A DNA stretch of 64,000 bases, taken from the NCBI RefSeq assembly GCF_017743735.1, contig NZ_JAGHRO010000003.1:186001-250000 (forward strand), given 5' to 3'. Shown piece by piece: positions 43,456 to 60,838 of the stretch. Source of the DNA: Shimia sp. R9_2. Lineage in GTDB: Bacteria > Pseudomonadota > Alphaproteobacteria > Rhodobacterales > Rhodobacteraceae. The translations under genes and the position numbers were made by a program. The notes under the pieces were generated by a model that did not search any database, was not told the origin of the DNA, and saw only the letters and a list, made by a program, of their open reading frames with translations. The first letter of the stretch is position 1. Every line of letters begins with the position of its first letter.

Positions 43456-45213
43456 TCACTCACGGGTGGCGCGCATTTTTGCACGGAGGGTCTCTGTGCA
43501 TTCGGCGTTATCATCCCCGGTGGCGGCATTGATCATCACGCCAAAGAGCTTCCGCGCCTGAGGCGGGTTATAGCGGCCAAGTCGCACGTCTTCGACGACA
43601 AGTGCCGGGTCCCGCGCCAGCGGGTCGCCGTAGCCACCACCACCGGGGGTTTGCACATGCACCCGATCTCCGGGCGCAAGCGGGATGTCCTGTTCTTTGG
43701 ACAGATGCTCAGGCGTGTAGGCCATGCCATCCTGCCAGACGGTGACGCGATTGATGCCGCCGTCACAGCCGCCCAGCGCGCCTTGCGGGCCAAAGCGCCC
43801 GTGATCCATCACAAAACTTGCCTTGGCATGGCCGCGGCGCAGCTCGATTTCATAATCAAGCCCAAAGCCGCCCCGTTGCGTGCCCGCGCCGCCGGAGCCT
43901 TCGTGCAGGGCATAGCGGTGATAGAGCACAGGGTAGGCCTGTTCCATGATTTCAATAGGCGGCGCTTTAGAGATGCCGATGGTTGAGCAGCCGTTGGCCA
44001 GCCCGTCATGGTCGGCGTTGCCGCCATATCCGCCACCGGAAATCTGATACATCACATAGTCGCGCCCCTTTTCGGGATCATGCCCCCCCAGCGCAAAATT
44101 GCCGCTGGTGCCAGCGGGCGCGGCGGTGACACGGTCGGGCAGCGCGGGCACAAGCGCGGCAAAGACCGCTTCGGCGATGCGTTGGGAGACTTCGGCGGCG
44201 CAGCCTGAGACCGGGCGCGGGTAATTGGCATCCAGAAAGGTGTCCTCAATGCCCGTGACCGTGAAAGGCGCAAAAGCTCCGGCGTTCATGGGCACTTCGG
44301 GGAAGATATGGCGCATGGCGAGATAGACCGCGCTGAGCGTGGTCGCGCGCACGGAGTTCATCGGCCCCATACAGGGGGCGCTGCTGCCGCTGAAGTCAAA
44401 GGTCAGACCAGCGGCGTCGCGGGTGATCGAAAGCGCGATCACAAGCGGGGTGTTCACCACGCCGTCGCTGTCAACATAGGCGGTGGCGCGGTAGTGGCCC
44501 GGCGCAATCTCATCAAGACAGCTGCGCATCTGGGTTTCGGCGCGGGCGCGCAACTCTTGGATGGCAGCTGCAACCTGCGCATCCCCATAGCGCTCCAGAA
44601 GCGCGCACAGGCGGTCTTGGCCCACCAGCAAGGCTGCGGCCTGCGCCTGTACGTCGCCAATGCGCTGATCGGCCACGCGGATATTGGACTTGATGATCGA
44701 AAAGATCTCCTGATCCAAGACGCCCTGCTTGAAGAGTTTCACGGGTGGCAGGCGCAGGCCTTCTTGTTCCACTGCTGTGGCGGATGCGGAGAAGCCGCCG
44801 GGGACTGCACCACCCGTGTCCGGCCAGTGACCGGTGTTGGACAGCCAGCAGAAGATCTCTCCATCGCGAAAGAGCGGCGTGGCAAAGCGCACGTCCATCA
44901 GATGTGTGCCGCCCAGATAGGGATCGTTCACGATGTAGATGTCGCCGGGCTCCGGGGCGGCCACGTCGCCTGCGGCAATCATCTCAACCAGTGTGCGGGT
45001 TGAATACTGCATGGTGCCGACAAAGACCGGAAGCCCTGCGTTGCCCTGTGCAATCAATGCCCCGTCGTCGGCGGCGTAGATGCCATCGGAGCGGTCGTTG
45101 GCCTCAGCAATCACAGGGGAGAAGGCTGCGCGGGAAAAGCTCAGGTCCATCTCGTCGCAGACCTGCTGAAGCCCGGCCTGGATGACGGTCAGGGTGATCG
45201 GATCAACGGTCAT
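43456..45213 (-). CDS. Hydantoinase B/oxoprolinase family subunit
   Basis: This 585-residue HyuB-type subunit works with HyuA in ATP-dependent opening of a cyclic amide (N-methylhydantoin, 5-oxoproline, caprolactam or related). Family features are DPITLTVIQAGLQQVCDEMD at the start, NDPYLGGTHLMDV near residue 97, and a glycine-rich C-terminal region with GGYGGNADHDG and TPGGGGYGDP. Its start overlaps the stop of the HyuA-type gene by 4 bases. It ends 37 bases from the convergent gcdH stop with no evident terminator. The substrate is unknown. Confidence 0.9.
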   Translation of the reverse strand: MTVDPITLTVIQAGLQQVCDEMDLSFSRAAFSPVIAEANDRSDGIYAADDGALIAQGNAGLPVFVGTMQYSTRTLVEMIAAGDVAAPEPGDIYIVNDPYLGGTHLMDVRFATPLFRDGEIFCWLSNTGHWPDTGGAVPGGFSASATAVEQEGLRLPPVKLFKQGVLDQEIFSIIKSNIRVADQRIGDVQAQAAALLVGQDRLCALLERYGDAQVAAAIQELRARAETQMRSCLDEIAPGHYRATAYVDSDGVVNTPLVIALSITRDAAGLTFDFSGSSAPCMGPMNSVRATTLSAVYLAMRHIFPEVPMNAGAFAPFTVTGIEDTFLDANYPRPVSGCAAEVSQRIAEAVFAALVPALPDRVTAAPAGTSGNFALGGHDPEKGRDYVMYQISGGGYGGNADHDGLANGCSTIGISKAPPIEIMEQAYPVLYHRYALHEGSGGAGTQRGGFGLDYEIELRRGHAKASFVMDHGRFGPQGALGGCDGGINRVTVWQDGMAYTPEHLSKEQDIPLAPGDRVHVQTPGGGGYGDPLARDPALVVEDVRLGRYNPPQARKLFGVMINAATGDDNAECTETLRAKMRATRE

Positions 45214-60020: not shown

Positions 60021-60838
60021 CTGTTATGCCTCAGGTGGCGTGGTTGCCGGACGGGCGACGGTTGCATCTGCATCACGGCCCCATTGATCTGATCATTGAA
60101 ATTTGGGGCGACGGGCGCGCTGAGGCTTATGTTGCGGTGGTGCAGCGGTTTGAGACGGTTTTGCAGGAATTGGTGGCAGAGCTGCCGGGACTGCGGCAAT
60201 CCGCCGATCAGGAAATCGTTTTTGAGGGGCAGATTGCCCAAAAAATGCAAAAGGCTGCGCGGGTTGGGTTGCCTGATTTTGTCACACCGATGATGGCGGT
60301 CGCCGGTGCGGTGGCAGATGAGATCGCCAATATCATCGCCAACGTCCCCGGCGTGGCGCGGGCCTATGTCAACAACGGCGGCGATGTGGCGCTGGTTCTG
60401 ACGGAGGGGGAAACCCTGCGCGCCAAGGTGATTGGCAACTCAGCAGGCGTGAAAGTGAACGCGGAAGATCCGATCCGTGGCGTGGCGACCTCTGGTTGGT
60501 CAGGGCGCAGCCTGTCCCTTGGCATTGCGGATGCGGTGACTGTTCTGGCGCATACGGCGGCAGAGGCGGATGTGGCGGCAACTTTGATTGCCAATCACGT
60601 GGATGTTCCCGGGCATCCGGCGATCACAAGAGCGCCTGCCAATGAGGTACGTGAGGATACGGATTTGGGAGCGCGGCTGGTGACCGTCGATGTTGCGCCA
60701 ATGCCTGCAGAAGATGTCAAACAGGCCCTGCTGCGCGGGGTGCAATATTCTGAAAAGCTGTCACAAAAGATGCCGCTGGCCGGTGTATATCTCTATGCGC
60801 AGGGGCAAGCGCGTTGTGGGCTCAAGTTTCTTTCATAA
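60017..60838 (+). CDS. UPF0280 family protein, ApbE (flavin transferase) superfamily
   Basis: This 273-residue protein belongs to UPF0280 (COG2122), distantly related to ApbE, which attaches FMN covalently to Thr/Ser of target proteins. ApbE-like features can be seen: ARAYVNNGGDVAL with NNGGD at 119-123, VATSG at 156-160, and GIADAVTVLA then AEADVAATL at 169-190. Its 4-base overlap with the reductase-like gene suggests it matures or assists that protein. The function is unproven. Its 3' end overlaps the convergent rsmA by 17 bases. Confidence 0.82.
   Translation: MTVMPQVAWLPDGRRLHLHHGPIDLIIEIWGDGRAEAYVAVVQRFETVLQELVAELPGLRQSADQEIVFEGQIAQKMQKAARVGLPDFVTPMMAVAGAVADEIANIIANVPGVARAYVNNGGDVALVLTEGETLRAKVIGNSAGVKVNAEDPIRGVATSGWSGRSLSLGIADAVTVLAHTAAEADVAATLIANHVDVPGHPAITRAPANEVREDTDLGARLVTVDVAPMPAEDVKQALLRGVQYSEKLSQKMPLAGVYLYAQGQARCGLKFLS

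Follow-up and report, generated by a model that had tools for sequence, protein, structure and literature searches.

An ATP-dependent lactamase (HyuAB) probably takes the place of enamidase in a predicted nicotinate catabolic locus of Shimia sp. R9_2

The window analysed here is a stretch of 64,000 nucleotides from Shimia sp. R9_2 (contig NZ_JAGHRO010000003.1), which carries genes for Hnr, an iron-sulphur protein resembling 6-hydroxynicotinate reductase, and for HyuAB, a two-subunit enzyme considered here as an adenosine triphosphate (ATP)-dependent substitute for enamidase, the ring-opening enzyme of a known nicotinate pathway. The named genes fall into three transcription units: a minus-strand HyuB-HyuA pair, a branched-chain-type importer of five genes (49663-54353) and FAD-Mo-Hnr-UPF0280, in which the flavin adenine dinucleotide (FAD) and molybdenum (Mo) subunits of a hydroxylase precede Hnr, together with a MarR gene on the minus strand. 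The features are as follows:

43456..45213, minus strand: HyuB, metal-site subunit of the proposed ATP-dependent lactamase (PF02538, E 3e-155)
45210..47288, minus strand: HyuA, ATP-site subunit of the proposed ATP-dependent lactamase (PF01968, PF05378, PF19278)
47313..47324: operator-like palindrome TTTGCATACAAA, one mismatch to TTNGTATACNAA, 24 bases upstream of the start codon of HyuA
49663..51015, plus strand: importer substrate-binding protein (PF13458, E 4e-49); the reading frame starts with TTG, with an ATG at 49711
51016..52008, plus strand: importer permease 1, start uncertain (PF02653, E 2e-34)
52005..52952, plus strand: importer permease 2 (PF02653, E 7e-39)
52949..53671, plus strand: importer ATPase 1 (PF00005, PF12399)
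53658..54353, plus strand: importer ATPase 2 (PF00005)
54386..54844, minus strand: MarR-family regulator, divergent from the hydroxylase operon (PF01047, E 5e-9)
54928..54942, plus strand: operator-like site TTTGTATACCAACAA in the MarR/FAD gap, exact match
54981..55835, plus strand: FAD subunit of the Mo hydroxylase, a proposed nicotinate 6-hydroxylase (PF00941, PF03450)
55832..58552, plus strand: fused 2Fe-2S/molybdopterin subunit of the hydroxylase (PF00111, PF01799, PF01315, PF02738, PF20256)
58554..60020, plus strand: Hnr, 6-hydroxynicotinate-reductase-like iron-sulphur protein, so called from the names of many close relatives
60017..60838, plus strand: UPF0280 gene, partner of Hnr (NF003322, 322.3 bits, cut-off 290)

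All gene families listed in an earlier note on this DNA were found close to where it had placed them. Its description of one colinear 17-kb block was not borne out: HyuBA and the MarR gene lie on the minus strand and two genes stand between HyuA and the importer, and because of the opposite strands and intervening genes a single operon was rejected. The MarR gene was also relocated, to 54386-54844 on the minus strand; a plus-strand open reading frame at 54356 gave no Pfam or NCBIfam match. The statement that most junctions are 4-base overlaps was right for five of the eight within-unit junctions (HyuA/HyuB, permease/permease, permease/ATPase, FAD/Mo and Hnr/UPF0280), which overlap by exactly 4 bases, and wrong for the Mo/Hnr junction (a 1-base gap) and the ATPase/ATPase junction (an overlap of 14 bases if ATPase 2 starts at 53658), while the binding-protein/permease junction varies with the start codon picked.

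The co-occurrence search that had been proposed as a check was run on 390 genomes of the host's order (G and L numbers are our own labels for genomes and loci). Hnr was found in 97 of the 390, a HyuB orthologue in 47 (E 1e-150 or better; identities of at least 74%) and enamidase in 53 at E 1e-80 or better, 51 of these at an identity of at least 49%. HyuB or enamidase was present in all 97 Hnr genomes, with HyuB only in 46, enamidase only in 50, both in one (G206) and neither in none, and the 293 Hnr-negative genomes of the order had no HyuB and no enamidase (at least 49%) at these cut-offs; G013 and G305, with enamidase matches of 41-44%, were dropped from the order count. No enamidase match at E 1e-80 was found in the host's genome. 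A second sample, of 240 genomes, covered the whole class (G000, G001 and G002 being common to both samples). In it HyuB was present in 27 genomes at 60% identity or more and enamidase in 14 at 64% or more, and the 38 Hnr genomes comprised 25 with HyuB only, 13 with enamidase only and none with both or with neither (G441, with an Hnr match of E 2e-4, was dropped). Among 26 plasmid records with Hnr, 10 had HyuB only, 16 enamidase only and none both or neither, although these records are not independent since 12 of the 26 are from Sulfitobacter.

The association of Hnr with HyuAB is far beyond chance, and a HyuAB unlinked to the Hnr pathway was rejected on the strength of this co-occurrence. The idea that HyuAB serves as an enamidase substitute was upheld by the near-perfect exclusivity of the two enzymes, which together account for every Hnr genome, and by the palindrome common to the transcription units (see below). 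According to the earlier note, the single-pathway reading would fail if relatives regularly carried the hydroxylase-Hnr-UPF0280 operon without HyuAB; on the surface this is so in 50 of the 97 Hnr genomes, but enamidase is present in all 50, so that an observation meant to refute the substitution instead supports it. The rule of exclusivity still holds for the 10 HyuB genes of the order sample that lie more than 25 kb from Hnr or on another contig, and for six of the seven enamidase genes equally far away (the exception being that of G206); in several draft genomes HyuB and Hnr are merely on different contigs, the real distance not being given by the assembly. Among Hnr loci of named genomes (the best 80 of 155 stretches, plus 8 of the 26 plasmid records, L084-L091, of which L091 is unannotated), HyuAB was present at 21 of the 88, an amidohydrolase at three, neither within the stretch at 64 and both at none. 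Orthologues of HyuA or HyuB fell inside the stored flanks of 16 of the best 80 of 155 stretches, many of these flanks stopping short of where HyuAB sits in the window. On the fetched plasmids the same genes recur, with either HyuAB or the amidohydrolase, whose alignment with PDB 2vun (named ENAMIDASE; E 1e-106) runs over the full length.

A tree of Hnr was computed by a quick method without bootstrap for 131 sequences (134 minus the short G129, G618 and G416), with 39 of its 128 inner branches left open. The HyuAB and enamidase states need 10 changes on this tree, at least eight of them forced by well-supported branches, against an average of 43 when the labels were shuffled. Sister Hnr pairs of opposite state were observed (G078 with HyuAB and G170 with enamidase; G492 with HyuAB and G597 with enamidase), and G178 (HyuAB) is nested among enamidase genomes. 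In G078, G178 and G141, HyuAB is 62 kb away from Hnr or sits on a different long contig, and in a quick HyuB tree these three genes group with Heliomarina and Phaeobacter, a Rhodobacteraceae bacterium and genomes from outside the family (supports 91, 94 and 92); this grouping and the distance from Hnr fit an acquisition of HyuAB by transfer, accompanied by the loss of enamidase. The swap from enamidase to HyuAB seems to have occurred several times among the relatives, and nothing points more strongly to a common function of the two enzymes than such independent exchanges.

The best PDB matches of HyuB were 6yra_B and the N-methylhydantoinase 7hk5, and those of HyuA were 7hk5 and 6yra_A, with acetophenone and acetone carboxylases ranking lower. 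From its residue numbers 6yra_B would be CapB, a caprolactamase subunit; the comparison with its metal ligands and with the features of the ATP-dependent lactamase family draws on the available parts of PMC8453981. The HyuB residues D40, H104, D107 and H129 were aligned by eye to CapB D41, H99, D102 and H124, and this Asp-His-Asp-His site is identical in 48 of 48 aligned rows, the window's own copy being one. HyuA has the motifs DxGGTxTD, DxGGT and GxxPGP at residues 20, 293 and 357; DxGGT and GxxPGP are kept in 48 of 48 other rows, and DxGGTxTD is complete in 42 of 48 (six rows being gapped there). These rows include L122, L124, L209 and L210, whose stretches have no Hnr, and two HyuA rows with an internal stop were left out of the count. 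The catalytic residues of HyuAB are intact. As HyuA and HyuB scored 494 and 317 bits with the caprolactamase models NF050156 and NF050157, under cut-offs of 1000, HyuAB is assigned by sequence to the same family as caprolactamase but is no caprolactamase itself. Relatives of HyuAB are annotated as N-methylhydantoinase or acetophenone carboxylase (apc3/apc4).

The transcription units are linked by a common operator-like palindrome, TTNGTATACNAA, which was found repeatedly upstream of MarR/FAD, enamidase, HyuA and importer genes; in the window it stands at 54928 (exact, in the MarR/FAD gap) and 47313 (one mismatch, before HyuA). The sequence GTATAC occurs in 25 of 55 gaps between divergent MarR and FAD genes of other loci, compared with a mean of 2.2 and a maximum of 6 in letter shuffles. 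When TTNGTATACNAA was searched with up to one mismatch from 250 bases upstream to 45 bases downstream of where the protein match starts, with dinucleotide shuffles as controls, it was found upstream of FAD in 82 of 160 cases (shuffles 0.4), enamidase in 20 of 46 (0.0), HyuA in 9 of 55 (0.35) and importer genes in 7 of 66 (0.25), and before none of the inner-operon genes (0/168, 0/175 and 0/159); in these counts identical stretches enter once, kinship is left in and the region searched includes, for some HyuA and enamidase genes, the MarR/FAD gap. For genes more than 2.5 kb from MarR, FAD and Hnr, it was present at 4 of 30 HyuA genes (shuffles 0.1; L056, L085, L152 and L153) and 3 of 14 enamidase genes (0.05). 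A 15-base pattern with up to three mismatches gave seven matches at four places in the window, against an expectation of 1.1 and a maximum of 5 in 100 shuffles; FAD, HyuA and the binding-protein gene each have one of these places before them. The MarR protein would presumably bind the palindrome; its homologues in L088 and L089 are annotated NicR.

Many close relatives of Hnr bear the name 6-hydroxynicotinate reductase, and eight of its cysteines (18, 21, 25, 35, 123, 182, 226 and 362) are kept in at least 97% of the 131 rows. Hnr had no Pfam, NCBIfam or significant PDB sequence match, its AlphaFold2 model was poor (mean predicted local distance difference test score 61), and in a PDB fold search no match reached E 0.001 (best 0.5). 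UPF0280 was present at all 96 Hnr loci that span 14 kb or more (from 134 Hnr genomes; the neighbour counts given here are for these long loci, the 38 genomes with shorter loci being left out), and at 93 of them it lies no further than about 500 bases from the Hnr match. Two of the 88 named loci, L017 and L055, are without UPF0280 though the sequence continues, and L025 ends inside it. UPF0280, which matches PDB 2o34 at E 1e-5, is a protein that we take to belong to the ApbE superfamily. The Hnr of Eubacterium barkeri has a covalent flavin, and as a relative of ApbE the UPF0280 protein is a candidate flavin transferase for attaching such a flavin to Hnr; no convincing ApbE-type flavinylation motif was seen when the aligned Hnr rows were inspected by eye. 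In many loci UPF0280 is followed by a gene of the AA_synth family (PF06684, DUF1185), which is missing from this position in the window, the genome having only a 40% homologue elsewhere. A second AA_synth paralogue was noted in 58 of 61 enamidase-type and 10 of 34 HyuAB-type long loci.

By its domain matches the window's hydroxylase is of the right family for a Mo-dependent nicotinate 6-hydroxylase. Five loci without FAD-Mo (L085, L086, L088, L160 and L162) carry instead a NicB-like large subunit at 45% identity or more to the L085 copy (a 27% match in L148 was left out), annotated nicotinate dehydrogenase in L085 and L088, and the host genome had no NicB match at E 1e-100.

From the gene content, the HyuAB residues, the alternation of HyuAB with enamidase, the repeated swaps and the common palindrome, all of which were observed directly, we infer the catalytic steps, the substrate and the pairing of regulator and site. 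The importer would take up nicotinate or a relative, the FAD-Fe/S-Mo enzyme would hydroxylate C6, and Hnr would reduce 6-hydroxynicotinate to the lactam 1,4,5,6-tetrahydro-6-oxonicotinate (THON), which HyuA would activate with ATP and the metal site of HyuB would hydrolyse. The product would most likely be 2-formylglutarate and ammonia, leading to glutarate and glutaryl-coenzyme A (CoA), and MarR would control the units via TTNGTATACNAA. Nicotinate or 6-hydroxynicotinate is the best substrate candidate, judging by the enamidase partner, the NicB-like subunits in five loci, the MarR homologues named NicR and a nicotinate cluster of Bradyrhizobiaceae. The locus is thus quite probably a nicotinate catabolic locus of the E. 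barkeri/Azorhizobium chemical type, in which HyuAB opens THON in place of enamidase. A more specific version, in which the ATP-driven lactamase opens THON possibly keeping the ring nitrogen (as aminomethylene glutarate) and UPF0280 installs the covalent flavin of Hnr, is put forward only tentatively and is on balance doubtful. A VanA-type Rieske oxygenase gene was seen in 13 of 61 enamidase-type and 6 of 34 HyuAB-type long Hnr loci (among them L087, L090, L136, L155, L163, L164, L166, L187, L197 and L205), and none was identified between 40 and 64 kb of the window; as a guess, this enzyme might demethylate trigonelline to nicotinate.

Four further genes stand beside or between the units:

40856..41968, minus strand: CoA-transferase III, succinate-glutarate CoA-transferase-like (NF052585, 535 bits, cut-off 750)
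42204..43418, plus strand: glutaryl-CoA-dehydrogenase-like gene (PDB matches at E about 5e-190)
47350..48135, minus strand: PCuAC-domain gene between HyuA and importer (PF04314, E 6e-10)
48164..49603, plus strand: membrane-protein-like gene, often before a binding-protein gene (no Pfam match)

The first two, which the earlier note did not mention, may encode later steps of the pathway, the dehydrogenase-like gene being possibly a chance neighbour instead. PDB entries named glutaryl-CoA dehydrogenase match the latter, the top match (4w9u) being named only acyl-CoA dehydrogenase, and it scored under the cut-off of every NCBIfam model displayed. It adjoins HyuB in four of the five Hnr genomes of the genus (G000, G041, G071 and G196). 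Near Hnr, CoA-transferase genes of the succinate-glutarate type (at least 48%) were found at 11 of 61 enamidase-type and 2 of 34 HyuAB-type loci, and dehydrogenase-like genes (at least 60%) at 2 of 61 and 1 of 34, respectively; these neighbours lend mild support to a glutarate route. The order of genes around the PCuAC-domain gene is the same in L149, L151 and L152, where this gene and the membrane-protein-like gene again separate HyuBA from the importer although Hnr lies elsewhere in the genome, and homologues of the membrane-protein-like gene adjoin a binding-protein gene in many loci. A second branched-chain-type importer was noted at 36054-40666, just past the CoA-transferase gene.

The same logic might apply to another azine (picolinate, N-methylpicolinate or a pyridone) as substrate. 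For picolinate the lactam would be 6-oxopipecolate, the ring homologue of 5-oxoproline, opened by an oxoprolinase-like HyuAB to 2-aminoadipate and leading on to glutaryl-CoA, which would suit both the membership of HyuA and HyuB in the ATP-dependent lactamase family and the glutaryl-CoA-dehydrogenase-like gene next to HyuB. This is considered unlikely, as HyuAB exchanges with a homologue of an enamidase whose known substrate is THON, NicB-like proteins replace the hydroxylase in five loci, and sister Hnr proteins, for example those of G078 and G170, differ in state, so that one Hnr substrate probably serves both. It could also be supposed that two independent pathways happen to be neighbours, HyuAB serving an unrelated lactam or hydantoin; the opposite strands, the two genes in between and the HyuB genes that lie more than 25 kb from Hnr or on another contig in 10 of 47 genomes would agree with this. 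Such independence is hard to reconcile with the presence of HyuAB or enamidase in every Hnr record (97/97 in the order, one with both, 38/38 in the class and 26/26 on plasmids), with the absence of such HyuB from all 293 Hnr-negative genomes of the order and with the palindrome common to the units, and it is given very little credence. Least probable is an ATP-dependent carboxylase of the acetone/acetophenone type acting on the reduced intermediate: HyuAB is related to acetophenone carboxylase and has relatives annotated apc3/apc4, yet it has two subunits only, it is matched better by N-methylhydantoinase and 6yra than by carboxylases (the PDB matches of both subunits being the ground on which this reading was judged less likely), and it exchanges with a hydrolase.

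Several points weigh against the replacement of enamidase by HyuAB in a nicotinate pathway. The identity limits were chosen after the hit lists were known, and HyuB fades gradually in the class sample (60% kept, 57% or less dropped), where six more Hnr-negative genomes have HyuB at 50-57%; in addition G492, counted as HyuB, carries a 41% amidohydrolase. Because the genomes are related, raw counts and P values overstate their independence. Both enzymes are present in G206, with enamidase on a separate 27-kb contig and the sole Hnr match elsewhere, while HyuB at 60-62% occurs without Hnr in G604 and G502, HyuAB without Hnr in L122 (a plasmid stretch of Sinorhizobium medicae) and enamidase without Hnr in G470. 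No palindrome was found upstream of 46 of the 55 HyuA genes, some of the other nine may share the MarR/FAD site, and the window's HyuA copy has one mismatch, as has an unrelated copy at 1749. The Mo subunit is missing from 9 of the 96 long Hnr loci (one, G129, stops at Hnr), and NicB was found at no more than two of these nine loci; five of the others, G037, G133, G429, G492 and G481, searched as whole genomes, had no NicB match at E 1e-100, and G597 had a 36% match. The hydroxylase for such loci may be elsewhere or of another kind, and the lack of a recognised one lowers confidence slightly. Finally, the glutaryl-CoA-dehydrogenase-like gene is present in nine of nine genomes of the genus (the host's own included), four of them without Hnr, so that its nearness to HyuB may be chance and its standing as a pathway gene is weakened.

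Further features of these places were recorded. The 27-kb contig of G206 (L147) carries enamidase, two AA_synth genes and an ABC transporter, with no Hnr match on the contig. In L209 (G604) and L210 (G502) HyuAB stands beside a different Mo hydroxylase (27% to the window's), without Hnr, and perhaps serves another heterocycle pathway. L122 has AA_synth and a MarR-like gene beside HyuAB, with no Hnr in the fetched stretch. The palindrome copy at 1749-1760 (one mismatch), upstream of an open reading frame at 1823, could mark another regulon member or be a chance match. Several Hnr loci (L168, L173, L219, L226, L234 and L247) have neither the usual Mo subunit nor NicB in the stretch.

If HyuAB does open THON, a function would be gained for a HyuAB subfamily annotated as N-methylhydantoinase or acetophenone carboxylase, and a vitamin-degrading pathway would provide a case of repeated non-homologous replacement of a ring-opening enzyme by an ATP-consuming one. 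Nicotinate (vitamin B3), and perhaps trigonelline, would then be a nutrient for many marine bacteria, SAR116 and roseobacters included. The exchange pairs and the palindrome make this reading of HyuAB and enamidase testable.

Enamidase is a metal enzyme of the amidohydrolase family and needs no ATP. The nicotinate fermentation of E. barkeri was reportedly described by Alhapel in 2006. In this fermentation THON is hydrolysed by enamidase, according to the available parts of PMC9304392 and PMC7356986, and the E. barkeri system would share with the window, as far as these parts go, a Mo hydroxylase, a 6-hydroxynicotinate reductase and the hydrolytic opening of THON. Relatives of the window's cluster keep an enamidase which is a full-length homologue of 2vun, whereas the host genome has no enamidase match at E 1e-80 and ring opening is assigned to an unrelated ATP-dependent enzyme; the window's cluster also differs in having an importer and a MarR gene. 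A nicotinate degrader of the Bradyrhizobiaceae/Azorhizobium type has a cluster with an Hnr homologue and a route through THON and glutarate, as given in the available parts of PMC3511419, in which the words hydantoinase and enamidase do not occur. HyuAB together with Hnr was not described in the available parts of PMC3511419, PMC8453981, PMC9304392, PMC7356986, PMC4926349, PMC5979394, PMC10331938 or PMC4809877, and no description was found among the titles and abstract starts listed from the open-licence literature searched, most subscription papers being outside its scope; a homarine operon was also considered as an explanation, and nothing in the titles and abstract starts searched tied one to the cluster. 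CapAB, as far as the available parts of PMC8453981 describe it, resembles HyuAB in its two subunits, ATP motifs and Asp-His-Asp-His metal site, whereas the window's proteins, at 494 and 317 bits, fall under the CapAB cut-offs of 1000. The FAD and fused Fe-S/Mo form of hydroxylase used in the window differs from that of NicAB, and NicB-like proteins replace FAD-Mo in five loci. NicAB is the nicotinate dehydrogenase of Pseudomonas putida and catalyses the first step proposed here. By comparison with these systems the pathway would be a known one, its new part being the predicted ATP-dependent ring opening by HyuAB.

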